From contig NC_012030.1 in NCBI RefSeq assembly GCF_000022205.1, positions 310,001 to 374,000 on the forward strand: a stretch of DNA of 64,000 nucleotides, in the 5' to 3' direction. This document shows positions 26,601-57,780 of the stretch, piece by piece. The DNA is from Halorubrum lacusprofundi ATCC 49239 (GTDB lineage: Archaea > Halobacteriota > Halobacteria > Halobacteriales > Haloferacaceae). The notes below the pieces were generated by a model. That model was not told where the DNA came from and searched no databases. It worked only from the letters and a program-made list of their open reading frames with translations. Numbering within the stretch: position 1 is the first letter of the stretch; each line of letters begins with the position of its first letter. The position numbers and the translations under genes were made by a program.

Positions 26601-29403
26601 TGAAGTCGAGACACTCAGAAAACCCAGCACGGGATTGAAACTACTGTTTGTCCGCGTAATCCGGATCGAAGCGGTGTCGAGACACTCAGAAAACCCAGCA
26701 CGGGATTGAAACCGCTGCTCATCGGCTACGAACCCGAAGTACCGCGATGTCGAGACACTCAGAAAACCCAGCACGGGATTGAAACATATCGCACAGGTCA
26801 CCGGATACAAGAAGGATTCACGGTCGAGACACTCAGAAAACCCAGCACGGGATTGAAACGAAGCAGGGGCTTGCCCCTGACCCGACCGGCGGGTCGAGAC
26901 ACTCAGAAAACCCAGCACGGGATTGAAACTGTCCGTTTTGGACGGGCGAGCCAGCATACTGTGATGTCGAGACACTCAGAAAACCCAGCACGGGATTGAA
27001 ACACCTTTTGAGGTCCAGCGAGTAGAATATTCTTTGGGTCGAGACACTCAGAAAACCCAGCACGGGATTGAAACCAATATTCACCGACCAGGATGTACAC
27101 GAACTCCGCGTCGAGACACTCAGAAAACCCAGCACGGGATTGAAACTCGGTCCTGTGTCATCCATCGGCTGCGGTCAGCGTCTGTCGAGACACTCAGAAA
27201 ACCCAGCACGGGATTGAAACTGGTCTGGTTGTGGTTCGAGACAGTCGCGGTCAGTGTGTCGAGACACTCAGAAAACCCAGCACGGGATTGAAACATTTCG
27301 TCGGCCTCGTAGCCGTAGGCGCTCATCACGGTCGAGACACTCAGAAAACCCAGCACGGGATTGAAACGAGGTACTCGACCTCAGATACGTCAGCGCTGTT
27401 GACGTCGAGACACTCAGAAAACCCAGCACGGGATTGAAACCTGGGATGACGAGGTTCCGCGCTGCGAGGATCGCGTTGTGTCGAGACACTCAGAAAACCC
27501 AGCACGGGATTGAAACTGATCTCTAACTCTGGCGAGATCAACCCGTGTTCGTCGAGACACTCAGAAAACCCAGCACGGGATTGAAACTAGTACTCTGTCC
27601 CGCCGTCGTAGGACGTCAGTCGTCGAGACACTCAGAAAACCCAGCACGGGATTGAAACGTTCTTTCGAATACGATACAAGAGTAGCGGGCGGGTCGAGAC
27701 ACTCAGAAAACCCAGCACGGGATTGAAACTAGTACTCTGTCCCGCCGTCGTAGGACGTCAGTCGTCGAGACACTCAGAAAACCCAGCACGGGATTGAAAC
27801 ACGTGGACGTCGGCGTCTGGGATACCTATGGCAGTGCGTCGAGACACTCAGAAAACCCAGCACGGGATTGAAACTGTTCTCGTATAGGCTGATTGCCCTG
27901 TTCTCATTAAGTCGAGACACTCAGAAAACCCAGCACGGGATTGAAACTCCAAGGGACCTTCCGAGCCCCAGATCGAGAGACTGGTCGAGACACTCAGAAA
28001 ACCCAGCACGGGATTGAAACGCGGACGTATCCGCACCAGTGTCCCATGCTTGTCGTCGAGACACTCAGAAAACCCAGCACGGGATTGAAACACCTGGAGT
28101 TCGCTTGTTACAGGGGATAACTCTTGGGTCGAGACACTCAGAAAACCCAGCACGGGATTGAAACCATCCCCGAGAGCGTGAGCGACGCGCTGCCGACCGG
28201 TCGAGACACTCAGAAAACCCAGCACGGGATTGAAACACATAAGTGTGTGTGTCATTACAGCCAGTGGTGCTGGTCGAGACACTCAGAAAACCCAGCACGG
28301 GATTGAAACATTCCGTCAAACGGGAAGACAAATACCAAGAGAGTGGTCGAGACACTCAGAAAACCCAGCACGGGATTGAAACGGGATCTCGTCGCCGCGG
28401 TCACTGTCGAGTATGACGTCGAGACACTCAGAAAACCCAGCACGGGATTGAAACCACGACATAATCAATGACGACTGAACGCGAACGCAGAAGTCGAGAC
28501 ACTCAGAAAACCCAGCACGGGATTGAAACGCCATGCACCGCCACATCGAACTCGGCGGTCATGGCGTCGAGACACTCAGAAAACCCAGCACGGGATTGAA
28601 ACGGACGCCCGAGCCGCTGTGGGACGACGACCGCGGACGTCGAGACACTCAGAAAACCCAGCACGGGATTGAAACCGGAATACAGCGGAGCTAGTCCAAA
28701 CGCTCGGTGAAGTCGAGACACTCAGAAAACCCAGCACGGGATTGAAACCACGACATAATCAATGACGACTGAACGCGAACGCAGAAGTCGAGACACTCAG
28801 AAAACCCAGCACGGGATTGAAACGCCATGCACCGCCACATCGAACTCGGCGGTCATGGCGTCGAGACACTCAGAAAACCCAGCACGGGATTGAAACGGAC
28901 GCCCGAGCCGCTGTGGGACGACGACCGCGGACGTCGAGACACTCAGAAAACCCAGCACGGGATTGAAACCGGAATACAGCGGAGCTAGTCCAAACGCTCG
29001 GTGAAGTCGAGACACTCAGAAAACCCAGCACGGGATTGAAACGATCGATTCGAGAGCGTCGAGGCGGTCCGGCGGGCCGTCGAGGCGACCAGAAAACCCA
29101 GCATGGGATTAAAACAAGCAGACCGCCGACCGCGGAGCCAGTCAAGTTTGTCGAGGCACCCAAAAAATCTACAACGGAATTGAATCCCACTCCCGCTGGT
29201 CAGTTCGTTAACCGCGCGTTCGGTCGAGACAGCCAGAAAATCCACGACGGAATTGAAACCACGAGGTGAAGGTGTGCGAGCCCGGCCGCCGGTTGTCGAG
29301 ACAACCAGAAAATCCACGATGGAATTGAAACGTTGTGACCCGTCGGCGGTAGCAAGCTGCTGAGTTGTCGAGACGGCCAGAAAACCCAATACAGGACTGA
29401 AAC
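23645..29403 (+). CRISPR. Type I-D CRISPR array, 80 repeats and 79 spacers
   Basis: 37-bp repeats begin GTCGAGACACTCAG and end GGGATTGAAAC (the 3' ATTGAAAC is typical of type I repeats). Repeats 1-75 (23645-29042) appear identical. Repeats 76-80 (starts 29079, 29150, 29223, 29295, 29367) carry several, mostly transition, changes. Spacers are 31-39 bp, mostly 34-37. Internal duplications: spacers 1-9 recur at 25479-26169; the four-spacer block 28455-28748 is repeated in tandem at 28749-29042; one spacer occurs three times (24116, 24547, 25989); another occurs twice (27588, 27730). That leaves about 64 different spacers. Open reading frames running through the array are artefacts of the repeat. 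Confidence 0.97.
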
Positions 29404-31443: not shown

Positions 31444-32091
31444 CTACTTTATCTCGTACTCAACTAGTGGTGTCGACGTATCGCCCGACTCCCAGATCAT
31501 GCGGACAGTATCGCCCGACTCCAGTTCAACCTTATTTAGATCGTAAGTGACTGTCGGGATTGGCTCCCAAAGATTAATTCCGCCATCATCGAAACTGAAA
31601 GTCGTTCTATCGATAGTAGGGTTATTACTCTCCACTATTTCGTTAGTCTTGATGGCGATAACTGTTTGATCACCTGAGGAGATTTGATCTGATTCCGTAG
31701 TTTCCCACGGATTAACAATGTGATTGTAATCATATGCTTCCCACTCGTAGTATTCTTCGGGGGGATCAGGTGTTGCCCATGCTGGCTCGCAGTTGATTGT
31801 CACATTTATATTATCTTTATCAATATTATCACCGCCCTCATGGGTGAGTGTGACAATGGTCATCTCCGCCGAATGTCCCTCGCCATCATTTATTATTCGA
31901 TCTTCGTGCTCGGCGTCGATAGTCGCTTGTGGTGGGCTCTCAGATAATGAACCGGCCAGCCCAAACGCACTCGCACCAATAGCTGCAGCGATAATTAGTG
32001 TTAGTGCGACAACTAAAATGACACCAATTACAGGAGACACTGACCTGTCAACCCCTGTCCACTGAATAAGGTCCCTCACCCGTTTATGCAT
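31444..32091 (-). CDS. Type IV pilin-like protein (archaeal pilin N-terminal domain)
   Basis: 215 residues. Near the N-terminus RSVSPVIGVILVVALTLII is a class III signal: charged residues, a short SP segment and a hydrophobic helix as recognised by archaeal prepilin peptidase. The remainder is an acidic, Asn-rich beta domain expected outside the cell. Likely a minor pilin or adhesion subunit. The start codon is 3 bp from the left end of ISH3 copy 2, so the native promoter has been displaced. Confidence 0.8.
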   Translation of the reverse strand: MHKRVRDLIQWTGVDRSVSPVIGVILVVALTLIIAAAIGASAFGLAGSLSESPPQATIDAEHEDRIINDGEGHSAEMTIVTLTHEGGDNIDKDNINVTINCEPAWATPDPPEEYYEWEAYDYNHIVNPWETTESDQISSGDQTVIAIKTNEIVESNNPTIDRTTFSFDDGGINLWEPIPTVTYDLNKVELESGDTVRMIWESGDTSTPLVEYEIK

Positions 32092-32094
32092 ACT

Positions 32095-33493
32095 CAGTAC
32101 TTCACAAAGCCGCTTAGTTAGAACGTCTGCTTGCTGAAGGTGTGTCTAAAACCAAACAAGCAGACGGTGAGATCCACGAGGACCAGCTTCTTAACTTTCT
32201 CGTCAACCGCCTTGACGAGGAAGTTTCGCTCTCGTTAGCCAATAACGCTGAAATCACTGCTGAAGACATCTATGAGGTCCTCGTCGGCGCTTGCGCCGAC
32301 GGGACCTCTGTCTCTACGCTCTGTGCGTCGAGCCAGAACTCACCCGCTGGGAACACGGTCCTCTACCATCTTCGGACGAAGTTCGAGCCGGAACGGCTCG
32401 AACGAGTCGCTAACACGCTCCTGCGAAAGGATCTCGATGAATTGCTCCCCGAACAGGTGGAGGTCTGCGCAGACCTCCACCTGCGGCCCTACTACGGTGA
32501 CGAAGACGACACAGACGGCCTCTATCACTCGGTAGCGAAGCGTGGAACCACTGCGTTCCACGCCTATGCCACACTCTACGCGCGTGTGAAGAACAAACGC
32601 TACACGCTGGCGGTACGCCGTCTCAAAGACGGCGATACCGCAAGTAGTGTCCTCGCTGAGTTCTTCGGTGTCCTCGACGGCCTTGACGCCGGGGTCAAGG
32701 CCGTCTACCTTGATCGCGGATTCTACGACAGTAAGTGTCTCACGCTGCTTCAGGCGCACAATTACGCGTACGTGATCCCGATCATCCGGTGGGGTGAGGC
32801 GATTCAGCAAGAGCTCTCGGAAGGATGGAGTCGCGTCATTCAGCATGATCTGACGGGGAAACTCGACGGTCACAGCTGGACCGTCGATTTTCCCGTCTAC
32901 ATCGACTGTACGTACCTAAATGGGAAGTATGACGAGAACGGTGTGGCGCGTCACGGCTACGCCGCTGACGCGCCGTTCATCGACTCACCACGGGACGCTC
33001 GATACCACTACTCGAAACGCTTCGGTATCGAGTCAAGCTATCGCTTGTTTGAGCAAGCGATAGCGACAACGACAACACGAGATCCAACGGTACGGCTGCT
33101 GTACGTGGTGGTGAGTCTCCTCTTACAGAACGTCTGGCGGTACCTTCACTACGAGTATGTGGCGACGCCCCGCCGAGGCGGGCGTCGCCTCTGGTGGTGG
33201 CCGTACAAGGAGTTCGTCAATATGATTCGACGAGCTGCGTGGACGGCCCTCGCGGTGCGTCGGGCCGTCCCCGCGAATCGGCCACCTGACGACCGATTCC
33301 ACCGCTAACCACCGACCGAGCAAGCCAGCGGAGTGAGTGGCGACGCTGTCGCGTCGGCGGCTGACCGCCGCCGACAGCGACAGCTCTCCGTCGATCCGTC
33401 CGTAATTCTCTCGTCGAGACCGTCAGTACAACCGCTTCGACACAGAACTCAGGCCGCAGAAACAGCTAGCCGAGGATGCTTTGTGAGGTACTG
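32095..33493 (+). mobile_element. ISH3-family insertion sequence, copy 2 (1399 bp)
   Basis: Same 16-bp ends and length as copy 1. Left flank ATACT, right flank ACTAT: no 5-bp duplication. The left end abuts the pilin start codon, and the right end falls inside a glycosyltransferase gene. Confidence 0.93.
32142..33308 (+). CDS. ISH3-family transposase
   Basis: 388 residues, translation identical to the other full copies. GTG start, catalytic-type motifs LDRGFYDS and YSKRFGIESSYR. Confidence 0.92.
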   Translation: MSKTKQADGEIHEDQLLNFLVNRLDEEVSLSLANNAEITAEDIYEVLVGACADGTSVSTLCASSQNSPAGNTVLYHLRTKFEPERLERVANTLLRKDLDELLPEQVEVCADLHLRPYYGDEDDTDGLYHSVAKRGTTAFHAYATLYARVKNKRYTLAVRRLKDGDTASSVLAEFFGVLDGLDAGVKAVYLDRGFYDSKCLTLLQAHNYAYVIPIIRWGEAIQQELSEGWSRVIQHDLTGKLDGHSWTVDFPVYIDCTYLNGKYDENGVARHGYAADAPFIDSPRDARYHYSKRFGIESSYRLFEQAIATTTTRDPTVRLLYVVVSLLLQNVWRYLHYEYVATPRRGGRRLWWWPYKEFVNMIRRAAWTALAVRRAVPANRPPDDRFHR

Positions 33494-34440
33494 ACTATGT
33501 CTCGACCGAGTATCCGTCTTATGATGTCGACGTCGTCTCTCGCGTCCCTGTTCCGGAACGCCTTCGGGCCATCCTCGCGCGCGAGTACGACGTCATTCAA
33601 ACGGACGAGCTGATAGCCAACGGAATGCTCGCTGCCGGTGCGTCGGTGATCTACGACATCCCGCTCGTTGTCGCGATTCGCGGATGGGCCGACTACACGA
33701 ACGCCCATGGACAGTACGGCTGGCTCAAGGACGCCAGCATTCGCGCCCGAACCCGTCTCGCCCTCCACCAGACGTCTGAGGTGATATTCATCAGCGACAC
33801 CACTAGTGAGACATTTCGCGAGCAGTATCCAGTTACCCAGTACTCTGTCATTGGCCGGCCCGTCGACACCGACCGGTACGGTACCGGCCGGGCAAGTGAC
33901 CGAGAGACGTTCGACCTCCTCACCGTCACGAACCTGCGCTATGAAGAGAAGTACGATGGCGTCCTGACTGTGTTGCGCGCCCTCCAACCGCTGTTCGAAG
34001 AGTATCCGACACTCCAATACAGAGTCGCCGGCGGCGGACAGTATCTGGATGCGCTCCGCAAGTATCTCGGTGACTACGAATACGCCGACCGCGTGACCGT
34101 CCTCGGGTTCGTCGAGGCCGTCGAAGGCGAGTTCGCCAGCGCCAACGCATTCGTCTACGTGAGCTTTCTCGACTCTTACGGGACCGTAGTACTGGAAGCA
34201 CAGGCCGCCGGCCTCCCCGTTATCGGCGGTGACGCCATGGGAGTTCCGGAAGCCGTCGGGGACGCCGGTGAGGTCTGTCCCCCGACACCTGGCGGCATCC
34301 GCGATGCACTCGAACGCCTCATCACCGACGACGACCACCGCGAGTCACTCGCGACCCAAAGCGGTAAGAAGATGGCAACGTACAACGAGGAGTGCGCCGC
34401 TGGTCACGTCGATGTCTGGGAACGAGTACTCGATACATAG
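33494..34440 (+). pseudogene. Glycosyltransferase family 4 protein, N-terminus lost
   Basis: Reading in frame from the ISH3 edge (YVSTEYPSYDVDVVSRV) to the stop gives about 314 residues. Recognisable GT-B features: VIYDIPLVVAIRGWADY in the linker region, FDLLTVTNLRYEEKYDGV starting the C-terminal domain, and FVYVSFLDSYGTVVLEAQAAGLPVIGGD in two blocks, the E-x7-E donor-binding signature. The first part of the acceptor-binding domain is missing. An internal ATG at 33625 could start a shorter product, but it would lack much of the N-terminal domain. Remnant of a surface-polysaccharide cluster. Confidence 0.8.
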
Positions 34441-36910: not shown

Positions 36911-37414
36911 ATGAACCTTCCTTACGCTCTGTCTGAGATACGACATCACGGTCTTGACCGAACATGGTGGCGGAAACGGTTCCTGACGCACGTCGTAAGT
37001 AGATATTTTACTGGAATCACCCGGCCTGAATCAGATCCGGTCACCGAGGAGGAGTGGGATAATTTGATCATTTTGGACGCATGCCGATACGACCTATTTG
37101 CGGAATTATTTGAGGAGAACCCGCTTCCAGGAATGTTGGAGAAACGACAGAGTATGCAGTCGGGAACGCCCGGATTTCTCTCAGAAAATTTTGATAACAA
37201 GCAATTTCATGATATTGTCTATGTCACTGGAAATCCGTATGTAAACACGAATCTTCCGGATGAAACCTTCCACGCTGTCGAGTCAGTCTGGAAAGATGGC
37301 TGGGACAACGACCTCCAGACGATTCATCCAGCTACGATGGCCAATCGAGCTATGAAAGTAGCTGAAGACTACCCAAACAAGCGTATCATAATCCATTTTC
37401 TCCAGCCACATACT
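36911..37414 (+). pseudogene. Sulfatase-like hydrolase, 3' end lost to ISH3
   Basis: The first 168 residues (from MNLPYALSEIRHHG) are present. LIILDACRYDLFAE is the metal-site start typical of haloarchaeal sulfatase-like hydrolases, and IIIHFLQPHT is the conserved QPH segment, after which ISH3 copy 3 begins. A TATA-like ATATTAAA about 25-34 bases upstream supports the start at 36911 as leaderless. The second metal site is missing, so it is inactive. Confidence 0.75.
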
Positions 37415-38813
37415 CAGTACTTCACAAAGCCGCTTAGTTAGAACGTCTGCTTGCTGAAGGTGTGTCTAAAACCAAACAAGCAGACGGTGAGATCCACGAG
37501 GACCAGCTTCTTAACTTTCTCGTCAACCGCCTTGACGAGGAAGTTTCGCTCTCGTTAGCCAATAACGCTGAAATCACTGCTGAAGACATCTATGAGGTCC
37601 TCGTCGGCGCTTGCGCCGACGGGACCTCTGTCTCTACGCTCTGTGCGTCGAGCCAGAACTCACCCGCTGGGAACACGGTCCTCTACCATCTTCGGACGAA
37701 GTTCGAGCCGGAACGGCTCGAACGAGTCGCTAACACGCTCCTGCGAAAGGATCTCGATGAATTGCTCCCCGAACAGGTGGAGGTCTGCGCAGACCTCCAC
37801 CTGCGGCCCTACTACGGTGACGAAGACGACACAGACGGCCTCTATCACTCGGTAGCGAAGCGTGGAACCACTGCGTTCCACGCCTATGCCACACTCTACG
37901 CGCGTGTGAAGAACAAACGCTACACGCTGGCGGTACGCCGTCTCAAAGACGGCGATACCGCAAGTAGTGTCCTCGCTGAGTTCTTCGGTGTCCTCGACGG
38001 CCTTGACGCCGGGGTCAAGGCCGTCTACCTTGATCGCGGATTCTACGACAGTAAGTGTCTCACGCTGCTTCAGGCGCACAATTACGCGTACGTGATCCCG
38101 ATCATCCGGTGGGGTGAGGCGATTCAGCAAGAGCTCTCGGAAGGATGGAGTCGCGTCATTCAGCATGATCTGACGGGGAAACTCGACGGTCACAGCTGGA
38201 CCGTCGATTTTCCCGTCTACATCGACTGTACGTACCTAAATGGGAAGTATGACGAGAACGGTGTGGCGCGTCACGGCTACGCCGCTGACGCGCCGTTCAT
38301 CGACTCACCACGGGACGCTCGATACCACTACTCGAAACGCTTCGGTATCGAGTCAAGCTATCGCTTGTTTGAGCAAGCGATAGCGACAACGACAACACGA
38401 GATCCAACGGTACGGCTGCTGTACGTGGTGGTGAGTCTCCTCTTACAGAACGTCTGGCGGTACCTTCACTACGAGTATGTGGCGACGCCCCGCCGAGGCG
38501 GGCGTCGCCTCTGGTGGTGGCCGTACAAGGAGTTCGTCAATATGATTCGACGAGCTGCGTGGACGGCCCTCGCGGTGCGTCGGGCCGTCCCCGCGAATCG
38601 GCCACCTGACGACCGATTCCACCGCTAACCACCGACCGAGCAAGCCAGCGGAGTGAGTGGCGACGCTGTCGCGTCGGCGGCTGACCGCCGCCGACAGCGA
38701 CAGCTCTCCGTCGATCCGTCCGTAATTCTCTCGTCGAGACCGTCAGTACAACCGCTTCGACACAGAACTCAGGCCGCAGAAACAGCTAGCCGAGGATGCT
38801 TTGTGAGGTACTG
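37415..38813 (+). mobile_element. ISH3-family insertion sequence, copy 3 (1399 bp)
   Basis: Same ends as copies 1, 2 and 4. Left flank ATACT, right flank ACGTT: no duplication. The left end interrupts a sulfatase-like gene. Confidence 0.93.
37462..38628 (+). CDS. ISH3-family transposase
   Basis: 388 residues, identical in translation to the other three full copies. GTG start. Confidence 0.92.
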   Translation: MSKTKQADGEIHEDQLLNFLVNRLDEEVSLSLANNAEITAEDIYEVLVGACADGTSVSTLCASSQNSPAGNTVLYHLRTKFEPERLERVANTLLRKDLDELLPEQVEVCADLHLRPYYGDEDDTDGLYHSVAKRGTTAFHAYATLYARVKNKRYTLAVRRLKDGDTASSVLAEFFGVLDGLDAGVKAVYLDRGFYDSKCLTLLQAHNYAYVIPIIRWGEAIQQELSEGWSRVIQHDLTGKLDGHSWTVDFPVYIDCTYLNGKYDENGVARHGYAADAPFIDSPRDARYHYSKRFGIESSYRLFEQAIATTTTRDPTVRLLYVVVSLLLQNVWRYLHYEYVATPRRGGRRLWWWPYKEFVNMIRRAAWTALAVRRAVPANRPPDDRFHR

Positions 38814-38869
38814 ACGTTAGCTTAGTACGCCCGGGTTCAGCTACCCGTAGTCGACATTTGTTATAGAAG

Positions 38870-41929: not shown

Positions 41930-42211
41930 GTGAACTCTTCCAGTGGTGGCTGTCCGAACTGTGGATCAAGCGACACAGTCGAACAGCGGGTCCTGGAACA
42001 CTGTCACTGTGGTTGCATCCAGAAACGTTCGGCATTCACAAACGGCTGTCCAAAATGCTCTCACTCCGAGATTGAAGACGAGATGCGATCAGTGGGAACG
42101 ATCCGCATCTGCAACGTGTGTGACAACAACTGGCGACCGAGGGCAGATGGTGGATCGGTCTCGACCAATCGAACCGGAGATCACGATAGCCAGATCGACC
42201 TCAGCAAGTAT
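41930..42211 (+). pseudogene. Multi-zinc-ribbon protein, truncated by ISH3
   Basis: From GTG 41930, 94 residues are native before ISH3 copy 4. Cysteine pairs: CPNC (residues 8-11), HCHCGC, CPKC and CNVC, giving two zinc ribbons. The arrangement HCHCG...F..GCPKC......VGTIRICNVC resembles TackOD1-type output domains, but this is tentative. The C-terminus, probably a further domain, is lost. Confidence 0.5.
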
Positions 42212-43610
42212 CAGTACTTCACAAAGCCGCTTAGTTAGAACGTCTGCTTGCTGAAGGTGTGTCTAAAACCAAACAAGCAGACGGTGAGATCCACGAGGAC
42301 CAGCTTCTTAACTTTCTCGTCAACCGCCTTGACGAGGAAGTTTCGCTCTCGTTAGCCAATAACGCTGAAATCACTGCTGAAGACATCTATGAGGTCCTCG
42401 TCGGCGCTTGCGCCGACGGGACCTCTGTCTCTACGCTCTGTGCGTCGAGCCAGAACTCACCCGCTGGGAACACGGTCCTCTACCATCTTCGGACGAAGTT
42501 CGAGCCGGAACGGCTCGAACGAGTCGCTAACACGCTCCTGCGAAAGGATCTCGATGAATTGCTCCCCGAACAGGTGGAGGTCTGCGCAGACCTCCACCTG
42601 CGGCCCTACTACGGTGACGAAGACGACACAGACGGCCTCTATCACTCGGTAGCGAAGCGTGGAACCACTGCGTTCCACGCCTATGCCACACTCTACGCGC
42701 GTGTGAAGAACAAACGCTACACGCTGGCGGTACGCCGTCTCAAAGACGGCGATACCGCAAGTAGTGTCCTCGCTGAGTTCTTCGGTGTCCTCGACGGCCT
42801 TGACGCCGGGGTCAAGGCCGTCTACCTTGATCGCGGATTCTACGACAGTAAGTGTCTCACGCTGCTTCAGGCGCACAATTACGCGTACGTGATCCCGATC
42901 ATCCGGTGGGGTGAGGCGATTCAGCAAGAGCTCTCGGAAGGATGGAGTCGCGTCATTCAGCATGATCTGACGGGGAAACTCGACGGTCACAGCTGGACCG
43001 TCGATTTTCCCGTCTACATCGACTGTACGTACCTAAATGGGAAGTATGACGAGAACGGTGTGGCGCGTCACGGCTACGCCGCTGACGCGCCGTTCATCGA
43101 CTCACCACGGGACGCTCGATACCACTACTCGAAACGCTTCGGTATCGAGTCAAGCTATCGCTTGTTTGAGCAAGCGATAGCGACAACGACAACACGAGAT
43201 CCAACGGTACGGCTGCTGTACGTGGTGGTGAGTCTCCTCTTACAGAACGTCTGGCGGTACCTTCACTACGAGTATGTGGCGACGCCCCGCCGAGGCGGGC
43301 GTCGCCTCTGGTGGTGGCCGTACAAGGAGTTCGTCAATATGATTCGACGAGCTGCGTGGACGGCCCTCGCGGTGCGTCGGGCCGTCCCCGCGAATCGGCC
43401 ACCTGACGACCGATTCCACCGCTAACCACCGACCGAGCAAGCCAGCGGAGTGAGTGGCGACGCTGTCGCGTCGGCGGCTGACCGCCGCCGACAGCGACAG
43501 CTCTCCGTCGATCCGTCCGTAATTCTCTCGTCGAGACCGTCAGTACAACCGCTTCGACACAGAACTCAGGCCGCAGAAACAGCTAGCCGAGGATGCTTTG
43601 TGAGGTACTG
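42212..43610 (+). mobile_element. ISH3-family insertion sequence, copy 4 (1399 bp)
   Basis: Same ends and length. Left flank AGTAT, right flank ATGTT. Both neighbouring genes are cut at the element ends. Confidence 0.93.
42259..43425 (+). CDS. ISH3-family transposase
   Basis: 388 residues, identical in translation to the other full copies. GTG start. Confidence 0.92.
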   Translation: MSKTKQADGEIHEDQLLNFLVNRLDEEVSLSLANNAEITAEDIYEVLVGACADGTSVSTLCASSQNSPAGNTVLYHLRTKFEPERLERVANTLLRKDLDELLPEQVEVCADLHLRPYYGDEDDTDGLYHSVAKRGTTAFHAYATLYARVKNKRYTLAVRRLKDGDTASSVLAEFFGVLDGLDAGVKAVYLDRGFYDSKCLTLLQAHNYAYVIPIIRWGEAIQQELSEGWSRVIQHDLTGKLDGHSWTVDFPVYIDCTYLNGKYDENGVARHGYAADAPFIDSPRDARYHYSKRFGIESSYRLFEQAIATTTTRDPTVRLLYVVVSLLLQNVWRYLHYEYVATPRRGGRRLWWWPYKEFVNMIRRAAWTALAVRRAVPANRPPDDRFHR

Positions 43611-44145
43611 ATGTTAGGTAATGTTTTTTGAAAGTTTTCCAATCGTCAAACGACGCCCACTGCATAACTTGTAGTGGACCAACGTCAGAATCTAAAAGAG
43701 TGTTACAGAATGTCCTCCTACCGTCGTGCAATCCGAGATATTGCCAACCTTCATCTCCAGTCTCATCTTGAATCCTATCAGCAGCAGCTTGGACGTGCCT
43801 AATACATGTACGCATGGAGTGGTCGATTACTTCATCACTGGAATCAACATCAGATGTTTCTTCGACCGTTTGAATTCGAATAGCAAGACTCGATGGTACA
43901 GGTGTCTCTCTGTATTTATCTCCTTTCCCTTCCCATACTCTCAACACGTAATCTCCGTTATCTCTCCGGCGTAGGTCTTTGAACTGAACGTCGCCTATCT
44001 CTTGCCGTCGTAGGCCACAGTAAGATGCTAATCCCCATGCGATACTGGAAGTAGTGTTATCGATTTCATCGTACAACGCTTCGCGTTCTTCCTTGGTCAA
44101 GCTCACACGAAAACCGTCATCCTCCTCGTAGGATTCCAGTTGCAT
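43611..44145 (-). pseudogene. Tyrosine recombinase, last residues replaced by ISH3
   Basis: About 178 native residues. Catalytic Arg in ASYCGLRRQEIGDV, His-Asp-Gly-Arg-Arg (HDGRRTFCNTLL) and the nucleophile Tyr near FKKHYL are all present. The frame then enters the ISH3 right end, which supplies a foreign tail. Only a few residues after the Tyr are lost, so residual activity is possible. Different from the integrase at 30.6 kb. Confidence 0.78.
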
Positions 44146-47819: not shown

Positions 47820-47844
47820 TCCTTGCTTTTCAGAAAGTCTATTC

Positions 47845-48206
47845 TCAGTACTTCACAAAGCCGCTTAGTTAGAACGTCTGCTTGCTGAAGGTGTGTCTAA
47901 AACCAAACAAGCAGACGGTGAGATCCACGAGGACCAGCTTCTTAACTTTCTCGTCAACCGCCTTGACGAGGAAGTTTCGCTCTCGTTAGCCAATAACGCT
48001 GAAATCACTGCTGAAGACATCTATGAGGTCCTCGTCGGCGCTTGCGCCGACGGGACCTCTGTCGCGTCGGCGGCGGTCAGCCGCCGACAGCGACAGCTCT
48101 CCGTCGATCCGTCCGTAATTCTCTCGTCGAGACCGTCAGTACAACCGCTTCGACACAGAACTCAGGCCGCAGAAACAGCTAGCCGAGGATGCTTTGTGAG
48201 GTACTG
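47845..48206 (+). mobile_element. Miniature ISH3 derivative (362 bp)
   Basis: Same left and right ends as full ISH3, with the first about 225 bp and last about 140 bp kept and about 1037 bp deleted at a short CTGTC repeat. The first about 57 transposase codons are followed by out-of-element sequence, so there is no functional enzyme. It could be mobilised by the full copies. Flanks ATTCT and ATTAT do not match. Confidence 0.88.
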
Positions 48207-48213
48207 ATTATGT

Positions 48214-48473: not shown

Positions 48474-49800
48474 AGATAGTCCCTTGGCGGTTCAAGACGC
48501 GAATGCGTCTTCAGCGATTTCTGAGACAGCCATCGAGACGTTTGATTTGGGAACGTACATCGGTGCTAAACTGACCGTTAACAACGAACCATACGGGACG
48601 ATTTGCTTCGCCGATAAAGAAGAACGAGGCACTACGTTCAGTGATGCTGAAACACACTTCGTGGAACTGCTGGCTCATCTGGCCAGAAACGCGATTGAAC
48701 GACGGACTTACGAACAGGAACTCGAAGAGCGTGAAGCTCGTCTTGATGAACGAGAAGAAGAGCAGCGGGCCCTCATCGATGCCAGTTTCGATCTAGTGTT
48801 CCGTATCGATACTGACGGACAGTTCACGTTTATATCAGATACTGCAGAAGATCTCTTGGGCTACACACCAGAGGAACTCGTTGATCGCCCGTTTAGCTTG
48901 TTACTCCCAGATAACGCCTCCGTTGAGCTAGCAACAGAGACCTACGAACAAGCATTAGCTGGTCAGTCCGTCGAAGAAGAATATCTTGTCGTTGAATCCA
49001 AGACAGGCGACCAAGTCGTCTTAGATGTTCGAAAGGTCCCAATCTACGAGAGCACCGTTCCGAAAGAAAACCGAACAACCGCTGATATCGTCGGTGTTCA
49101 AGGGGCTGCAAAAGCAGCAACTGAACGGTTTCACCGCGAACGACTGAACCACGTTCTGAATCGTGTCCTCAGACATAACCTCCGGAACGATATGAACGTC
49201 ATCGGCGGATTTTCAGAGGTCCTCGAAAAACGGTTGTCTGGCGAGAACGCGGAGCTGGCCGAGCGAATTAACAGGACAAGCGACCGACTGTCACAGCTCT
49301 CTGAGTCGACTCGCAAGCTAAGTGAGAATATGGACCTCGCTCCTGAGCTGGAGCCCATGGATATCACACCCATGGTGGAGCGTGCGGCCAGCCAAATCAC
49401 CGAGCGATATCCCGACGCAGATATCACGGTGAAAATGCCCAGCAAGATAGTGGCGCAGAGTACCCTCAGTTTGGAAACGGCTGTCTGGGAATTACTCGAT
49501 AATGCCGCTAAGCACGCGGGAGACTATCCAGAGGTGTCAGTCGAAGTAACGACGATAGAAGATCGGGTTGCAATACGGATTTTTGACGACGGCCCCGGGT
49601 TGCCGCCCAGCGAGCGGTCGGTACTGACAACTGGTGAAGAGACGCCGCTCGTTCATGGCCAAGGACTGGGATTGTGGCTCGTCTACTGGATTATTGAGGG
49701 CCTGAACGGCGATCTGCAGCTACACAATGACGATCCTAGAACGTGTATTGAGCTCCGACTCCATGCTGGTGAAGTGCCTTCAGAATCCTCTGGTGAATAG
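48474..49800 (+). pseudogene. GAF-PAS sensor histidine kinase, N-terminus lost
   Basis: In frame from the IS6-type end (DSPLAVQDANASS). It contains the second half of a GAF domain (YIGAKLTVNNEPYGTICFADKE), a linker coiled coil, a PAS domain (ASFDLVFRIDTDGQFTFISD), the H-box RVLRHNLRNDMNVIGGFSE and a HATPase domain (ELLDNAAKHA, FDDGPGLP, GLGLWLVYWI). Kinase core complete, input region truncated. A TTG at 48484 could start a shortened protein. Confidence 0.82.
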
Positions 49801-49820
49801 GGTCTGGAGTTGATAACGCA

Positions 49821-51542
49821 ATGACTACACTTCAGACAGCCACCAGTCAATTGCAAGCGTCACTCCCGGTGTTTGAGTTGTACATTGTCGTTTTCGTAGC
49901 TGCCGCAGTAATCTGCTTTGCTAGCATCTTCCGCACCAAGCAGATCAACCAACACGATACGCGGAACGGGTTGATCGCACTCCTTGCAACAAGTGGAGCC
50001 TGGGCTCTTCTTCAAGTCGCCTATCTCATCGCTCCAACACCGGATCTCAAATATGTCTTCTACTTGGTCGGTCTTGTTGTTGGCCTTGCCACTGTCGGCC
50101 CGTGGCTCTACTTTTGTTCAGCCTACACGGGACGGTCGCTCCATCACAACACTACCTATCAGCAAGTCGCTGTTGGAGTCTATCTCGGCATCGTTGCCGT
50201 CAAGCTCACGAACCCGATCCACGGGCTGTACTTCACGTCGATGATGGTCGACCAGCCGTTTACCCACCTCATGATCAATCACGGCATCCTCCACTGGCTG
50301 GCGATGGGGGTAGCCTACGGGCTGGCGGTCGTCGGCATTTTCATGTTGTTCGAACTCTTCACCCAGGTCGACTACGATACCCGACCGTTCGTCGCACTCA
50401 TTGGGTTAACGGCCCTGCCAGTCATCCTCGATATTTTAGGAGCTATTAGCAACTCGTTTGTCAACATCGGCTACTCTGCTCTTGGTGTCGCCGTCTTTGC
50501 GGTCGGTGTGCTGTTCATCTATACGGACCGCTTCGGGACTATTCAGTTGGCTGGTCAGTACGATGATCCCGTGATCGTCCTTGACGATGATGATGAGATC
50601 CGTGATTTCAATCGGAGCGCGGCAAGACTATTTCCAGCACTCGAAGGCCGTCTTGATGAACCGCTTGCCGAAGTCTGCCCGGAGCTCGCAGCCACGACAC
50701 GGAATAGAGAAGTCTATCAATATACCAACTGCGACGAGACACAGTACTTCCGACCAACGAGAAACTCCTTTAGTGCAAACAACGTCCAGCTCGGGTTGCT
50801 GCTTGTGTTGAGTGACGTGACCGATGAAGAACGCTACAGACGGCGGCTCGAAGCCCAAAACGACCGTCTTGAACAGTTCACTGGTATGGTTTCCCACGAC
50901 CTCCGGAACCCGCTCAACGTCGCCCAAGGTAATAGTGAGATCATCTATGAACTCCTTGACGCCACGAAAACTGACGACGGGTACGAACCGTTGTCTGATG
51001 AGACCCTTGATACAGTCGTTACCTCGGCGAAGACCCTATCCAACACTCTTGATCGAATGGAACGCTTGATCGATGACTTGCTCGTATTGGCCCGACAGGG
51101 CCAAGCAATCGATAGCCGTGAGGTGGTGTCACTGGCAGCCATCGTTGAGAACTGTTGGGAGATGGTCGACCACAAGAACGCGGCGCTGGTCGTTGACGAT
51201 GACCTTACTTTCGCAGTCGATCCTGACCGTCTCCAACAACTCTTTGAGAACCTGTTTCGCAACGCCATCGAACACGGGGGTGACGACGTGACGATCCGGG
51301 TCGGTGCTCTCGAAAATAATGGTTTCTACGTCGAAGACGACGGCCCGGGCATCCCCGAGGAAAAACGCGAAGCCGTCTTCGATTCTGGGTTTACAACGAA
51401 CCGCGACGGAACCGGCTTCGGGCTCGCAATCGTCAAGGAAATTGTTGAGGCCCACGGCTGGACTGTCTCGGTGGCTGACAGCGACGAAGGGGGTGCACGC
51501 TTTGAGGTAACGGACATCGAGACCAAGCACTCAGACGAATAA
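49821..51542 (+). CDS. 7TM-type sensor histidine kinase
   Basis: 573 residues. Seven hydrophobic helices occupy about residues 15-235 (histidine-kinase N-terminal 7TM region), then a short PAS-like domain (VIVLDDDDEIRDFNRSA), HisKA (FTGMVSHDLRNPLNVAQG, phosphorylated His) and a HATPase domain (LFRNAIEHGG, EDDGPGIP, GTGFGLAIVKEI). Membrane sensor of unknown signal. Starts 20 bp after the truncated kinase gene. Confidence 0.9.
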   Translation: MTTLQTATSQLQASLPVFELYIVVFVAAAVICFASIFRTKQINQHDTRNGLIALLATSGAWALLQVAYLIAPTPDLKYVFYLVGLVVGLATVGPWLYFCSAYTGRSLHHNTTYQQVAVGVYLGIVAVKLTNPIHGLYFTSMMVDQPFTHLMINHGILHWLAMGVAYGLAVVGIFMLFELFTQVDYDTRPFVALIGLTALPVILDILGAISNSFVNIGYSALGVAVFAVGVLFIYTDRFGTIQLAGQYDDPVIVLDDDDEIRDFNRSAARLFPALEGRLDEPLAEVCPELAATTRNREVYQYTNCDETQYFRPTRNSFSANNVQLGLLLVLSDVTDEERYRRRLEAQNDRLEQFTGMVSHDLRNPLNVAQGNSEIIYELLDATKTDDGYEPLSDETLDTVVTSAKTLSNTLDRMERLIDDLLVLARQGQAIDSREVVSLAAIVENCWEMVDHKNAALVVDDDLTFAVDPDRLQQLFENLFRNAIEHGGDDVTIRVGALENNGFYVEDDGPGIPEEKREAVFDSGFTTNRDGTGFGLAIVKEIVEAHGWTVSVADSDEGGARFEVTDIETKHSDE

Positions 51543-51846
51543 TGGACTCACTCATCTACCGACTAACCTGGATTGCTATACTTAGTCTCTAAGTAGAGCA
51601 ATCTGTTCTGCTGGTCTCGTTCTCTTTCTGTTGGTGATGTGTGTGTCGACCTCAACCGATCACCTCGCTTGTCAAGTGGCTTTGTTTCCAACGTTAGTAC
51701 TATCTACTAACGAGAGTTGTTCGTCAGCCAGATTGGCTCTGATTGGCTGTCGACCATATGCATAAGCAGATATCACAATCGACGAAACTGTCCCGTAGCT
51801 ATCGCCACCGAAAGACACAGTATTCTGTGCTCACATAGTATTCTGT
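51543..51846. other. Intergenic region with hairpin and toxin-antitoxin promoter
   Basis: 304 bp without a gene. CGTTAGTA/TACTAACG at 51692-51712 is a perfect 8-bp hairpin with a 5-base loop. The vapB operator repeats are at the right end. Confidence 0.45.
51819..51846 (+). promoter_or_regulatory. Direct repeats before vapB (probable autoregulatory operator)
   Basis: AGTATTCTGT is present at 51819-51828 and 51837-51846, ending immediately before the vapB ATG; the first copy is also inside CACAG...CTGTG dyad symmetry. Ribbon-helix-helix antitoxins bind such repeats. Confidence 0.5.
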
Positions 51847-52077
51847 ATGCCGACTATCACTGTCAACGTCGATGATGAACTCAAAGAGCGGATGGAGAAC
51901 CACCCTGAGATCAATTGGAGTGAGGTAACTCGACAAGCAATCTCTGAGAAAATCAAGAAGCTTGAATTGATGGATGAGCTCACAGTAGATAGTGAACTAG
52001 GAGATGAGGATGTGGATGAAATAGCTGCGAAAATCAACGGCAGCGCACGCCAGCGCCTTGAAGAAGAGTCGGAGTAG
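51847..52077 (+). CDS. Ribbon-helix-helix antitoxin (VapB-like)
   Basis: 76 residues. PTITVNVDDELKERMENHPEINWSEVTRQAI is the RHH strand-helix-helix pattern; the C-terminus is helical and acidic for toxin binding. Eight bp before the PIN toxin gene. Confidence 0.8.
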   Translation: MPTITVNVDDELKERMENHPEINWSEVTRQAISEKIKKLELMDELTVDSELGDEDVDEIAAKINGSARQRLEEESE

Positions 52078-52085
52078 ACTACCGA

Positions 52086-52502
52086 ATGAAACTGGTTGTA
52101 GATGCGAATGTCGTTATCTCAGCTCTCATCTCAGATTCAAAAACACGGGAACTCATCGTTACGCTAGAGCCTGATCTTCTGACGCCAGAAGTTGTTCACG
52201 ATGAGATAGAACGCTACGAGGATCTCATCGTCGAGAAGTCAGGAATGGACCTAGACCGGGTACGACAGTTTATCGATCTACTGTTTGATCATATTGAGAC
52301 AGTGCCCGCAAGCGAATTCTATCAGCATATCGATCAGGCCGATAGTGCAATTGGTGAGGCTGATCCAGATGATGTTCTGTATGTTGCTTGTGCTCTTGGC
52401 TGTGAAGCAGCAATTTGGAGTGATGATTCAGATTTCAACGAACAGGACCTCGTCTCGGTGTTTACCACCGGTGAGGTTATTGGGTCGTTTGACACTGTCT
52501 GA
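52086..52502 (+). CDS. PIN-domain toxin (VapC-like)
   Basis: 138 residues. KLVVDANVVISALISDSKTRE carries the first Asp, EVVHDEIERYEDLI the Glu, and ADPDDVLYVACAL plus SDDSDF the distal acidic residues. Forms a type II toxin-antitoxin pair with the upstream RHH gene; a ribonuclease by family. Confidence 0.85.
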   Translation: MKLVVDANVVISALISDSKTRELIVTLEPDLLTPEVVHDEIERYEDLIVEKSGMDLDRVRQFIDLLFDHIETVPASEFYQHIDQADSAIGEADPDDVLYVACALGCEAAIWSDDSDFNEQDLVSVFTTGEVIGSFDTV

Positions 52503-52862
52503 GTAGAGAGTTCGTATGTAGAGCGATTTCTCTGAGCCTGAACTAATATCAGTCACAGGTGGGTGCTGTCGACCGGAGTTTCGAACTACTAGGCAATACT
52601 TTAAGTCACTCCATCTCACAAGCTAAGCCAACAGCTAAGGAAAATAAATAACCGAGAAGGCAGCTGGTTGGACACCTACTGCTTCTTCTCGGATGAATAT
52701 AAGCGTTTGCCTTCAGTGAGCCACTGCTGTATCTCTCACTACGTGTTGTGTGAGGAACATAGTGCAACTGCAACAGATATGTCAAAATACACAAGATCAA
52801 CGGTAGAAACCGACGTTAATCTCACCACAAGCCGATAGTTATGACTCACCAGAATTGTTCCA
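52503..52862. other. Intergenic region before the stem-loop cluster
   Basis: No gene, repeat or RNA recognised in these 360 bases. Confidence 0.4.
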
Positions 52863-53068
52863 AACGAAAATCCGGGGCCAAAGTTCCTACGCTCGATCCC
52901 GGATTTCGTTTCGTAGTATCCCGAAGCGGATCAGTGGATATGATCCTACGAGGAGCGTGTGACGGTATGCTCCTACCAGTAAGGTCGACGTTCGGGTTCA
53001 AATTCCTTTCGGCCCTTACTGGTTGTAGGTCGATCTCCACAGAGTCCGCTTCACCATACGGCGGGCTC
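52863..53068 (+). ncRNA. Cluster of five consecutive stem-loops before the 1002-aa gene
   Basis: Inverted repeats follow each other: 52863-52910 (AACGAAA..TCCGGG with CCCGGATTTCGTT), 52928-52946 (GGATC/GATCC), 52951-52974 (AGGAGC/GCTCCT), 52975-53023 (ACCAGTAAGG/CCTTACTGGT, perfect 10 bp) and 53042-53068 (GAGTCCGC/GCGGGCTC), the last ending one base before the ATG at 53070. It could be a structured 5' leader, a separate RNA, or DNA hairpins at a replication origin. The RNA class given is provisional. Confidence 0.45.
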
Positions 53069-53069
53069 C

Positions 53070-56000
53070 ATGCACTCAGAACCCAATAATCAAGATCGAC
53101 ACCCCGATATTCGGCAGGTTGCGCCTGATGGATCACTTTCGACAGCTGGCATCCTTGTCAGTGATGTCTCTCCAAGAATTACTGAGTGGGTTCCAGGGCT
53201 GCTCGACGAACTCCTCCCAAGCAGTGTTCGAACTCTTCGAGAATACATTGCTCACACTGATCCAGGAATCCTCTCGGACGGGCGATACGGTTCGCTGGTG
53301 GGCAAAATGCAGGCCGATACCTTGGGGGTCACGCATCGAGAATGGGGGTCGACGACCGACACGTGGAGTGATGATGAGGCTGAAGCCGTCGAATACCTCC
53401 ATTCGCTATTTAATCGCGCTGTCAAGTACCACGATCAGTCGACCGACGAACTATCGAACTACCACCAGCAGCGTGAGAAAAATATCGACACTGCACTGAC
53501 CAAGATCGGGACTGGCAAAGGTCCACTCAACGGTGGCCTCGAAGCACTCGCTAAAGGCCCCGTTGCACTTCACAGTGAGTTCGACGAGGCTCCACAGCCC
53601 ATTACGCTCATCCTCGATGGGCAGTCCTGGACGGACCTCGACGACCGGTCAACTGGTGTACGGGCTCTCGCTGCAATTGCAGTCCTCGGGTCAGCCTTCG
53701 ATGTTCGTCTCGTTATTTCGCCTGGGCTAGACCAGCATCTCCGTCGACGGTATTCTACGTGGTACGATACACATCTGGGTCTTACTGAGAGTGCTGATAG
53801 GTCCACACAAGAAACAGTGGCTACGGCTGGTCGCTCATCAGCGACGACCCGTCGACGCGCGTGGGAAGTACTGCAGGAGCTCCCAGAAGACTCTGGACGT
53901 CTCCGGTTGCTTGGGAATCTCCCAGTCGACGGCTCACGCGACTATCGGGACCTCAAACAAGACGACGAAATCGGCGTCACACCGGGGACTGTTGGCCGCT
54001 ACGTCCTTGACCTCGAAGAGTTGGGTCTCGCCTCTATTGACCGCTCTGGACAGTACAACAGTGCCTCTCTCACGTCGCTTGGCCAGCTTGCTGTCGAGGA
54101 GTTTCTGACCGCTGATTACCGGACGGTCCACCCCTCCCAGTCGAGATTGCAGACGGCTCTTACGCCGACCCCTCAGTCCGATGCAGGTACAGTGTATAGA
54201 GCGCAAGCAAGCACGGAAGGAGGGGAGGGGACACCTCCGACAGCAACCGCCGAGGAGTGGATGGCCGCAACGGGCTCCCCCACCAACGGCGACAGCTACG
54301 TCCAGTGGCTCAACGGCCCCTCTGAGATCCTCGACGCATGGGGAATGCACCACCGATACGCCGCTGGCCGCCGAAATCGCGGAGTAAACCTCGTTGACGA
54401 CCGGCTCGCGAAGTTTGACGACGGTCGCATCTCCTATCTCAGTTGTTTCGACGACGATCTGCTCGTTATGTCTCAGTGGGGTGGCCCTCTCCCAACACTG
54501 GGACGTATTGCGGGAGCCTTACTGAGCGATAAAGCACTGAGTAAGATACTGACTCCATCTGCCCTTGGCAGCGAGTTCGAGGCAATCGACGATGGTGTCG
54601 TCGACAAACTCGATCAAAAGGTAGGCGATATCATCCGTTGGGGTCACCAGATCGGCTGGTTTAGCGAAGACGAGGAACAATACGATGATTGGAGAGAACG
54701 TATCGGCACCGTTCGAAGCCTTTGTCTCGAAAAAGTCGGTGAGCTCACCAACAGCGACGATATCGAAGCTCGGAAAGAACTGTTTCGAGATCTCCAGGGG
54801 TTGATTGCTTCGGCAACACAGCTCTACTACGCTATCGGCGTCGACGTAACGATCAACATCCGAATGCCGGACACAGGGATGCTGATTCGGGATGAGAAAC
54901 GCCTGAATGACTTTCTGAATTTCACTCGGTACACCGTCCCCAAACAGTCTGTCTACGGGATCCACTCGGGATACCGAATGCTCCTGGAAGATCGCGAAGA
55001 GAAGCTGAAAAAGCGACTGTCGTACGATGTCGATAGTTCCGACCCAGCGATGCATCTGACCGCCTCATGGGTGTTTTCGGGACCAACAATGACGGATCTC
55101 AAACCACAAATTGAGAAGGCAATCGAACAGGAAGCAAGCGAGATCCGAGAGGCTATTGCCGATGGAACGGAGGCGGCACCGGTGATGGAGATCCCCGTCC
55201 AGATCTCGAACACCTATACTGCTACCCGAGAGCTCGTCGAAGAATTTGCGACGGCGAAAGGCTACGAGGTCTCCCATCGGGGTGATATCCATGAGCGAAA
55301 CGACGACTTAGAGCGTCTGGTTCGGCTGTTCCTCCGGGTGTTAGGGACTGCTGATCGGCCACACCGGGCTTGTCCATCGGATGTCGCCGAAGCCATGTTG
55401 CATATCGCTCGGTCGACTCAGAGCTTCGATTTCATCAGTATTCGGGACATCGCCTACGGGCTGTCACAACTGCCAGCAGAGCGGTTACTGCCCGATCTGC
55501 CGCCGACAGCGACGAAACTGCTGAAAACACTGCTGGATGCAGACGAGCCGATGCGACGCTCCAAAATTATTGAGGCCGCTGGGATCTCTGGGAGTAGCTA
55601 CGACCGGTATATCAACGAGCTCGCAGCGTGGGACATCATTGAGCCGACCGAATCTGAGGGTCGACGGCGGTGGGAAGGGCACTTAGAGACATGGTGGAGT
55701 CCCCAGAGTCATCGCGAAGAACCGTTTGGAGAACCAGAGCCAGATACGGCAATCATCGACGCAGAGTTCGCCCGTGATGTAGGGAGCCGAGTACTGTGCC
55801 ACTACATAACGCACTATGATCTCCCCGAGTTAGAAGAGGTGTATATGAGTGGACTCTGTCCGATAGCTCCAGACGATGATATCGAGGCGTTGTTCGGACG
55901 GCATCGTCGGTTATCACGGTGGTGGGCGTTCCTGTGGGGGGCGTATGCAGATGAAGACGAGATCGCGAACGCTGAAGCTGTGACAGGATCGGAGACTGCA

Positions 56001-56078
56001 GTTCGGATTGGACAGTTGCCGGGCTCGGTGGAGGATTCACAACAGAGCCTCGGTGAGTGTAAATCTGTGTCGACCTAG
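53070..56078 (+). CDS. Large helix-turn-helix protein of unknown function (1002 aa)
   Basis: No enzymatic motif was recognised. Residues about 185-245 (ITLILDGQSWTDLDDRS, AAIAVLGSAFDVRLVISP) look like an alpha/beta domain. Two winged-helix-like regions are visible: about 290-345 (DLKQDDEIGVTPGTVGRYVLD, LEELGLASID) and about 820-870 (LLKTLLDADEPMRRSKIIEA, AGISGSSYDRYINELAAWDI). Cytoplasmic, acidic. Size, HTH pairs, stem-loops just upstream and a plasmid-like neighbourhood suggest a replication, partition or large regulatory protein of a mobile replicon, but this is inference. Confidence 0.6.
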   Translation: MHSEPNNQDRHPDIRQVAPDGSLSTAGILVSDVSPRITEWVPGLLDELLPSSVRTLREYIAHTDPGILSDGRYGSLVGKMQADTLGVTHREWGSTTDTWSDDEAEAVEYLHSLFNRAVKYHDQSTDELSNYHQQREKNIDTALTKIGTGKGPLNGGLEALAKGPVALHSEFDEAPQPITLILDGQSWTDLDDRSTGVRALAAIAVLGSAFDVRLVISPGLDQHLRRRYSTWYDTHLGLTESADRSTQETVATAGRSSATTRRRAWEVLQELPEDSGRLRLLGNLPVDGSRDYRDLKQDDEIGVTPGTVGRYVLDLEELGLASIDRSGQYNSASLTSLGQLAVEEFLTADYRTVHPSQSRLQTALTPTPQSDAGTVYRAQASTEGGEGTPPTATAEEWMAATGSPTNGDSYVQWLNGPSEILDAWGMHHRYAAGRRNRGVNLVDDRLAKFDDGRISYLSCFDDDLLVMSQWGGPLPTLGRIAGALLSDKALSKILTPSALGSEFEAIDDGVVDKLDQKVGDIIRWGHQIGWFSEDEEQYDDWRERIGTVRSLCLEKVGELTNSDDIEARKELFRDLQGLIASATQLYYAIGVDVTINIRMPDTGMLIRDEKRLNDFLNFTRYTVPKQSVYGIHSGYRMLLEDREEKLKKRLSYDVDSSDPAMHLTASWVFSGPTMTDLKPQIEKAIEQEASEIREAIADGTEAAPVMEIPVQISNTYTATRELVEEFATAKGYEVSHRGDIHERNDDLERLVRLFLRVLGTADRPHRACPSDVAEAMLHIARSTQSFDFISIRDIAYGLSQLPAERLLPDLPPTATKLLKTLLDADEPMRRSKIIEAAGISGSSYDRYINELAAWDIIEPTESEGRRRWEGHLETWWSPQSHREEPFGEPEPDTAIIDAEFARDVGSRVLCHYITHYDLPELEEVYMSGLCPIAPDDDIEALFGRHRRLSRWWAFLWGAYADEDEIANAEAVTGSETAVRIGQLPGSVEDSQQSLGECKSVST

Positions 56079-56802: not shown

Positions 56803-57780
56803 TCAGTCGACTTCGCTTGCAGAGCTAAAACTGGTGAGTTCGTCGATACGGGCTTCGAGCTCTTCAATTTCGTCTTGGAGTTGGTCAGTCTCTGGGTTGT
56901 CAGCAGCAGCGAGTTGATCTTTGAGGCCCTGGAGGCGGGATTCTTTACGCTCTTCGTCGACATCGGCTTTGCGGACGTACTGGCTTTCGTTGATCTCGTA
57001 GAGATCCGATTCAGAGAGGTCGGTGACTTCGAGTGCCTCGTCGACTTTGGAGCTGTCGACGGTGGTAACACGTTCGCGATCAATACCTTGGTCTTCGAGT
57101 AGTTCGATGACGGTCTGGTCGTCTTTGAGGGTTCGATTGCGTCGACTGGTGCGCTGAACAGAGCCATACTGACCATGGACGGGTTGATCGTGGTGGAGGC
57201 GGTCGAGGAGAAGCGAGCGAACGTTCTGGCGGAGATCGTCAGCATTGCGCTGAACATCCGAGCAGAGCGTATAGAGATTGACCAGCTCAGAGGTTTCCAT
57301 CGTTTCGAGGTCGGTCGGCTCATAGCGTTCGAGGGCATCGATCAAGAGCAACGAATCCGAGTAGAGTGGGAGGTCGGGTTCCTCACGGACGGTTTTGTGG
57401 TCTTGGTTTTCGACAGTAAGTGAGGCGTCGACGAGCGAGGAGGGGGTAGGTGAATCGGTGTTTTTCAGCACACCCTCGCGTTGGTCGATCTCGAAGCGTG
57501 GATGTACAGAGATGATGGTAGCGTAGGGTTCGGCATCAGCTGGGAGACGATCAAGATCAAAGGGCTGTGGGGACTCAGAGATCCGTTGATAGAGAGTCTC
57601 GAATTGGTCCCGTTTGAGTGGAATAGTAGTGTCTTGCTCACGGTAGGAGATGAGGAGTCGATGTTCTTGGACGTCTTGGAGGCGGAATGGCTTTTCAGAC
57701 AGTGGGGTATGGAAGGACGTATCGGGTGGCACCTCGTCTAGTTCGTCGAGAATCGTGTGCCAGGTGACGGAGAATGGCAT
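56803..57780 (-). CDS. Hypothetical coiled-coil protein (325 aa)
   Basis: The N-terminal 100 residues are mixed (FRLQDVQEHRLLISYREQD, YATIISVHPRFEID). The middle has a helical segment with YTLCSDVQRNADDLRQNVRS, and the C-terminal 60 residues form a coiled coil (LQGLKDQLAAADNPET, LQDEIEELEARIDELT). No membrane segment. Family not recognised. Codon use and acidity match neighbours. Its coiled coil suggests oligomerisation. Confidence 0.6.
   Translation of the reverse strand: MPFSVTWHTILDELDEVPPDTSFHTPLSEKPFRLQDVQEHRLLISYREQDTTIPLKRDQFETLYQRISESPQPFDLDRLPADAEPYATIISVHPRFEIDQREGVLKNTDSPTPSSLVDASLTVENQDHKTVREEPDLPLYSDSLLLIDALERYEPTDLETMETSELVNLYTLCSDVQRNADDLRQNVRSLLLDRLHHDQPVHGQYGSVQRTSRRNRTLKDDQTVIELLEDQGIDRERVTTVDSSKVDEALEVTDLSESDLYEINESQYVRKADVDEERKESRLQGLKDQLAAADNPETDQLQDEIEELEARIDELTSFSSASEVD

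Follow-up and report, generated by a model that had tools for sequence, protein, structure and literature searches.

The window, i.e. the whole 64,000-nucleotide stretch of Halorubrum lacusprofundi DNA that was analysed, lies on contig C3 (431,338 bases) of a genome made up of three contigs. On its forward strand, an open reading frame of 1002 codons starts with the ATG at position 53070 and ends at 56078. The sequence-only reading had described the product as a giant HTH protein, and had assigned neither the protein nor the inverted repeats that precede its gene to a known family. A tblastn search against plasmids revealed 66% identity with RepH of Halobacterium pNRC100 across 100% of the query; the matches in pNRC100, pNRC200 and pHSAL2, described as "plasmid replication protein RepH", were 66-67% identical over 98-100% of the protein. 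In addition, PHROG 17376 (replication protein) matched the 1002-amino acid ORF with E=3e-52. The protein homology search that the earlier reading had advised thus found RepH, and an unknown protein family is ruled out by the pNRC100 RepH homology. On the strength of this homology, the ORF is shown to code for the plasmid replication protein RepH (gene repH). The HTH call was reasonable, but the matches behind it are weak: residues 277-346 (HVO_A0261_N winged helix) and 815-858 (IclR-type HTH) both score below the Pfam cut-offs. The sole match in a profile search against solved structures was a winged helix (profile positions 786-863, E=0.007), and an AlphaFold model built on seven sequences (pLDDT 36) was too poor for use.

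RepH of the haloviruses phiH1, phiCh1 and ChaoS9 belongs to the same broad family, with a common core at about residues 424-694 (PMC6471424, PMC6210493), but is only 25-30% identical to the protein analysed here, and over part of it. Some distant RepH proteins, namely L033, L034 and L046, begin with a longer N-terminal extension where the window type has the inverted repeats; in L046, on plasmid pNG300, this extension is annotated as DUF5817.

The autonomously replicating fragment of pNRC100, its published minimal replicon, consists of repH and ~550 bp of AT-rich DNA upstream, and repH is required for autonomous replication of the plasmid (PMC1447603, PMC1906834). The setting in the window is similar: the stretch 5' of repH (51600-52860) is AT-rich, as in the pNRC100 minimal replicon (PMC1447603), with 45-47% GC over 51.6-52.9 kb compared with about 54% in the surroundings. 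From the full-length identity of 66% with the protein of the pNRC100/pNRC200/pHH1 minimal replicon and this AT-rich upstream setting, we conclude that the locus is, as far as homology can tell, a RepH-type plasmid replicon of the pNRC100 kind, which is known and not new. The idea of a replication origin with its initiator was right in kind, being supported by the RepH homology and the pNRC100 minimal replicon. Orc1/Cdc6-dependent haloarchaeal origins with ORB repeats also have inverted repeats next to the initiator gene, but their initiator protein is not RepH. Just 5' of the repH leader, a gene with a PIN domain (PIN_2; 52086-52502) possibly codes for a plasmid-maintenance toxin; a VapC-like gene is also present in the repH-containing L-region of phiH1 (PMC6210493).

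In a genome of the same genus (G052), a repH hit has the same coordinates as one on plasmid pHrrPV6 of Halorubrum sp. PV6, in keeping with a Halorubrum-like host. A second repH gene is present on contig C3 (45650-48646). Its protein is 96% identical to that of the window, and its leader is identical. The homology of the two units begins at window position 48474 (aligned from position 5055 of L058 onward, i.e. G000:C3:41054 onward), and the duplicated stretch of ~6 kb (48474-54482) takes in the 5' half of repH. Over 51570-54482, which was checked at single-base resolution, the two are identical; in the rest of repH, after 54482, the divergence is ~13%, with 158 of the 208 substitutions at third codon positions, and the two units are more divergent beyond. 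The sharp border inside repH at 54482 points to a recent gene conversion or duplication, or to two related plasmids having been joined in the assembly and, because of such an origin, the identical leaders of the two copies are uninformative on selection. A 325-amino acid ORF of unknown family lies downstream of repH (56803-57780, reverse strand); since a relative (83% identical DNA) also follows the second repH copy, it may belong to the replicon, e.g. as a partition function.

An internally deleted remnant of an insertion sequence (47840-48207) adjoins the duplicated repH unit. The same insertion sequence is present in the window in four nearly identical copies (902-2306, 32090-33494, 37410-38814 and 42211-43611), and another one in two identical copies (4388-5790 and 6964-8366). 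The window also carries a CRISPR array of ~75 repeats (23645-29042; Rfam CRISPR-DR56). Two blocks of spacers occur twice within it: one of nine, starting at 23652, reappears in order at 25449, ~1.8-1.9 kb on, and one of four, starting at 28425, reappears at 28719.

The five closely packed inverted repeats that had been noticed before the ORF were located at 52862-53068. Hairpin A (52862-52911), the most conserved stem, is formed by AAACGAAAATCCGGG (52862-52876) and CCCGGATTTCGTTT (52898-52911). It is followed by hairpin B (52928-52946), with arms GGATC (52928-52932) and GATCC (52942-52946); hairpin C (52952-52973), with arms GGAGCGT (52952-52958) and ATGCTCC (52967-52973); and hairpin D (52975-53023), with arms CCAGTAAGG (52976-52984) and CCTTACTGG (53014-53022). 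The last one, the P5 hairpin (53042-53068; arms GAGTCCGC, 53042-53049, and GCGGGCTC, 53061-53068), leaves a single base before the ATG, as had been claimed. The minimum-energy fold of the block is an alternative to these separate hairpins. It is a multibranch domain closed by the long-range stem P1 (52923-53052), in which GAAGCGGAT (52923-52931) pairs with GTCCGCTTC (53044-53052), and it contains the stems P2 (52934-52938 with 53036-53040) and P3 (52946-52951 with 53023-53028). P1 is exclusive with both hairpin B and P5. The conserved sequence runs ~270 bp further 5' of the block and includes another hairpin (CCGAGAAG with CTTCTCGG, 52652-52692), which is recognisable at the same place in the relatives. 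A candidate TATA box, TTTAAGT (52600-52606), of which TAAGT is nearly invariant in the relatives, could be the repH promoter, and a second TATA-like site, TATAAG, lies at 52698-52703 within the conserved stretch. All these elements are on the forward strand. A GGGTTCAAATT motif in hairpin D resembles a T-arm; ARAGORN found no tRNA, and a tRNA-like element was rejected.

The calculated folding energy of the 52855-53069 segment was -87.3 kcal/mol on the forward strand, against -64.7 ± 4.5 kcal/mol for 200 dinucleotide shuffles (z = -5.0). The excess was as large on the reverse strand (z = -5.2) and with DNA parameters (z = -4.8). A larger GC-corrected excess was found in just 2 of the 256 window tiles of the same length, which places the block within about the top 1%; to this extent, with z about -5, the repeat density is indeed far above background. 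A search of Rfam with 52500-53200 gave no family match, the only hit being a worm microRNA family at 18 bits, far below its threshold.

Nine distinct leaders upstream of close repH genes, that of the window included (RepH at least 62% identical), were aligned over ~500 bp; they came from Halonotius, Halolamina, Halorussus, Halobacterium, Haloarcula, Halohasta and Haloarchaeobius, plus L011. The sequence-only reading had stated beforehand that homologues lacking the hairpins, or stems that do not covary, would count against it. The hairpin block was present upstream of all nine genes, with compensatory changes in several stems, and each close leader folded better than its shuffles (z from -2.8 to -7.9). 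The distant RepH genes, in contrast, do not have the hairpins: the z values of their leaders were mostly between -2.2 and +0.8, with the exception of Halorubrum L044 (z = -4.8), where, however, an annotated ORF spans the leader. When 391 haloarchaeal genomes were scanned with the hairpin A pattern, nine matches were obtained in eight genomes, only before close repH genes and in one orientation. The pattern was absent from 2.9 million viral contigs, a further difference from phiH1, phiCh1 and ChaoS9.

The leaders are also more similar than the fourfold-degenerate sites of repH are: identity is 0.87 versus 0.49 for Halonotius, and 0.63 versus 0.37 for the pNRC100 type. Compensatory changes were observed in hairpins A (C-G to A-U) and B (U-A to C-G, between the two groups of leaders), in P1 (C-G, U-G, U-A), in P2 (G-C to A-U), in P3 (two pairs) and at the base of hairpin C. 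In the local-hairpin fold 97% of the alignment cells are paired, a pairing that was reached by none of 500 shuffles. The sequence of hairpin D is almost wholly replaced in some relatives, and its stem is retained in all of them. Since the nine distinct sequences fall into only two similarity groups, these changes represent few independent compensatory events. The sequence comparison thus shows that the ~210-bp hairpin block is a cis element conserved in the pNRC100-like subfamily of RepH. Two tiles elsewhere in the window have a comparable folding excess, as a functionless chance cluster of inverted repeats might; the presence of the block in all close homologues, its compensatory changes and its slower evolution than fourfold sites refute this reading, which we consider the least probable of all.

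Conservation of the block could also stem from a small protein or leader peptide encoded over the hairpins, in an 82-codon frame that starts at the ATG at 52841. The ATGACTCA start is invariant in 9/9 sequences, and in six of them the frame stays open beyond the repH start, but it closes after 40-41 codons in the other three relatives. Moreover, differences are spread equally over the three codon positions and, of the codon differences counted over all pairs in the first 26 codons, 373 are nonsynonymous and 32 synonymous. With no codon-level purifying selection, the 82-codon gene was rejected as very improbable.

When plasmids were searched at the DNA level, the 480-bp leader gave no match; nonetheless, a direct comparison reveals recognisable homology with the pNRC100 leader. 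The latter has the same arrangement of hairpins A, B, C, D and P5, and differs from the window leader in hairpin D, in the P2 and P3 stems, and in the balance of folds, the pNRC100 type favouring P5 and the window type P1. The structured leader, in pNRC100 too, appears to be undescribed in Rfam and in the searchable literature. This novelty is provisional, because the primary 1993 paper on pNRC100 lies outside the literature covered. Hence, of the proposal that an undescribed system made of two unassigned parts is present here, what stands is the leader, whose hairpins have neither an Rfam match nor a description in that literature; the replicon is of a known kind and its protein is RepH.

Within the block, the segment TCCGC (53045-53049) has two possible partners: an upstream GCGGA, with which it forms P1 around hairpins C and D, or a downstream GCGGG, with which it forms P5. 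These three segments permit two exclusive folds in 9/9 sequences, and both partners are retained. The GGA(T/C) sequence is common to P1 and hairpin B; at its T/C position all nine leaders have the compensating base in hairpin B, and P1 is still paired there through U-G, C-G or U-A. The calculated energy gap between the P1 and P5 states ranges from 0 to about 9 kcal/mol among the nine leaders, with P1 preferred in the window group and P5 in most of the pNRC100 group. In every leader P5 adjoins the start codon.

We favour an attenuator-like RNA leader as the mechanism, a possibility that had been raised from the sequence together with an origin and an RNA-protein system; the last of these found no specific support. 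The most likely reading, to which we would give about an even chance, is that the conserved hairpin block of this RepH replicon serves the repH mRNA as its 5' leader and would limit RepH synthesis and hence plasmid copy number. The RNA reading is preferred because the position of P5 is fixed at the start codon and because hairpin D tolerates replacement of its sequence; the equally strong folding of the opposite strand counts against it. The block would be transcribed with repH. In the P1 fold, TCCGC would be paired far upstream and the start codon left free of a hairpin; in the P5 fold, it would be paired just downstream, and a hairpin would lie flush with the ATG. The balance between the two folds might be tuned by RepH itself, an antisense RNA, salt or temperature, and the switch could thereby set RepH translation and, through it, the plasmid copy number. 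That the leader is such a bistable copy-number switch of an archaeal plasmid, specific to pNRC100-type RepH and opposing a long-range stem to a start-codon hairpin, is a tentative proposal and rather doubtful. That both partners are retained could simply mean that a GCGGA-type protein-binding site is present three times, and not that there is a switch.

Such sites would be expected if the block acted as DNA, i.e. if the inverted repeats at the origin were binding sites for RepH or host proteins, or extruded a cruciform at initiation; RepH might then also repress itself through the nearby repH start. We regard this as a serious possibility of somewhat less than even probability, not far behind an RNA leader switch. 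The block falls inside the known pNRC100 minimal replicon, it goes one-to-one with the RepH subfamily, the pattern that an initiator and its cognate sites should show, and GCGGA occurs three times in alternating orientation. That folding is equal on both strands, and persists with DNA parameters, also agrees with a DNA element. Stem mismatches comprise 19 G-U and 20 A-C cells; with G-U not in excess this is what a DNA element allows, and since the two counts are about equal the comparison itself favours neither RNA nor DNA. However, neither iterons nor other direct-repeat arrays were found in the region, and a stem that survives sequence replacement, as in hairpin D, fits recognition of structure and not of sequence. 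Furthermore, interruption and partial deletion of the pNRC100 upstream region were tolerated according to PMC1447603, although this source and PMC1906834 disagree on whether the region tolerates interruption.

The strong folding on both strands would also suit a separate small RNA transcribed from either strand of the block, e.g. an antisense RNA that controls copy number by targeting the repH transcript. Mapped antisense RNAs are on record for Halobacterium NRC-1 (PMC6523106), but repH is absent from the main text of that report, and neither promoter nor terminator evidence was found for such an RNA, so that we consider it unlikely.

The preferred RNA leader would have counterparts in bacteria. 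Switchable or antisense-controlled leaders precede the rep genes of bacterial plasmids (IncFII, IncI, ColE2 and similar). Like these, the candidate repH leader is a structured sequence in front of the gene for the initiator, and its alternative pairing could restrict how much initiator is made; unlike them, it belongs to an archaeal host, and it shares no homology with them.

RepH genes are present on large plasmids of Halobacterium and of many other haloarchaea, and we know of no description of how RepH acts or of what sets its level. A structured element that is conserved, follows one RepH subfamily exactly and is also present in the genetically tractable pNRC100 provides a testable handle on archaeal plasmid copy control. 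If the element acts as DNA, the block is a precise candidate for RepH binding. If it is a true RNA switch, an archaeal initiator gene would, unusually, be controlled through its leader, and a bistable leader would add a new kind to the regulatory RNAs of archaea, one so far overlooked in the model plasmids pNRC100 and pNRC200.
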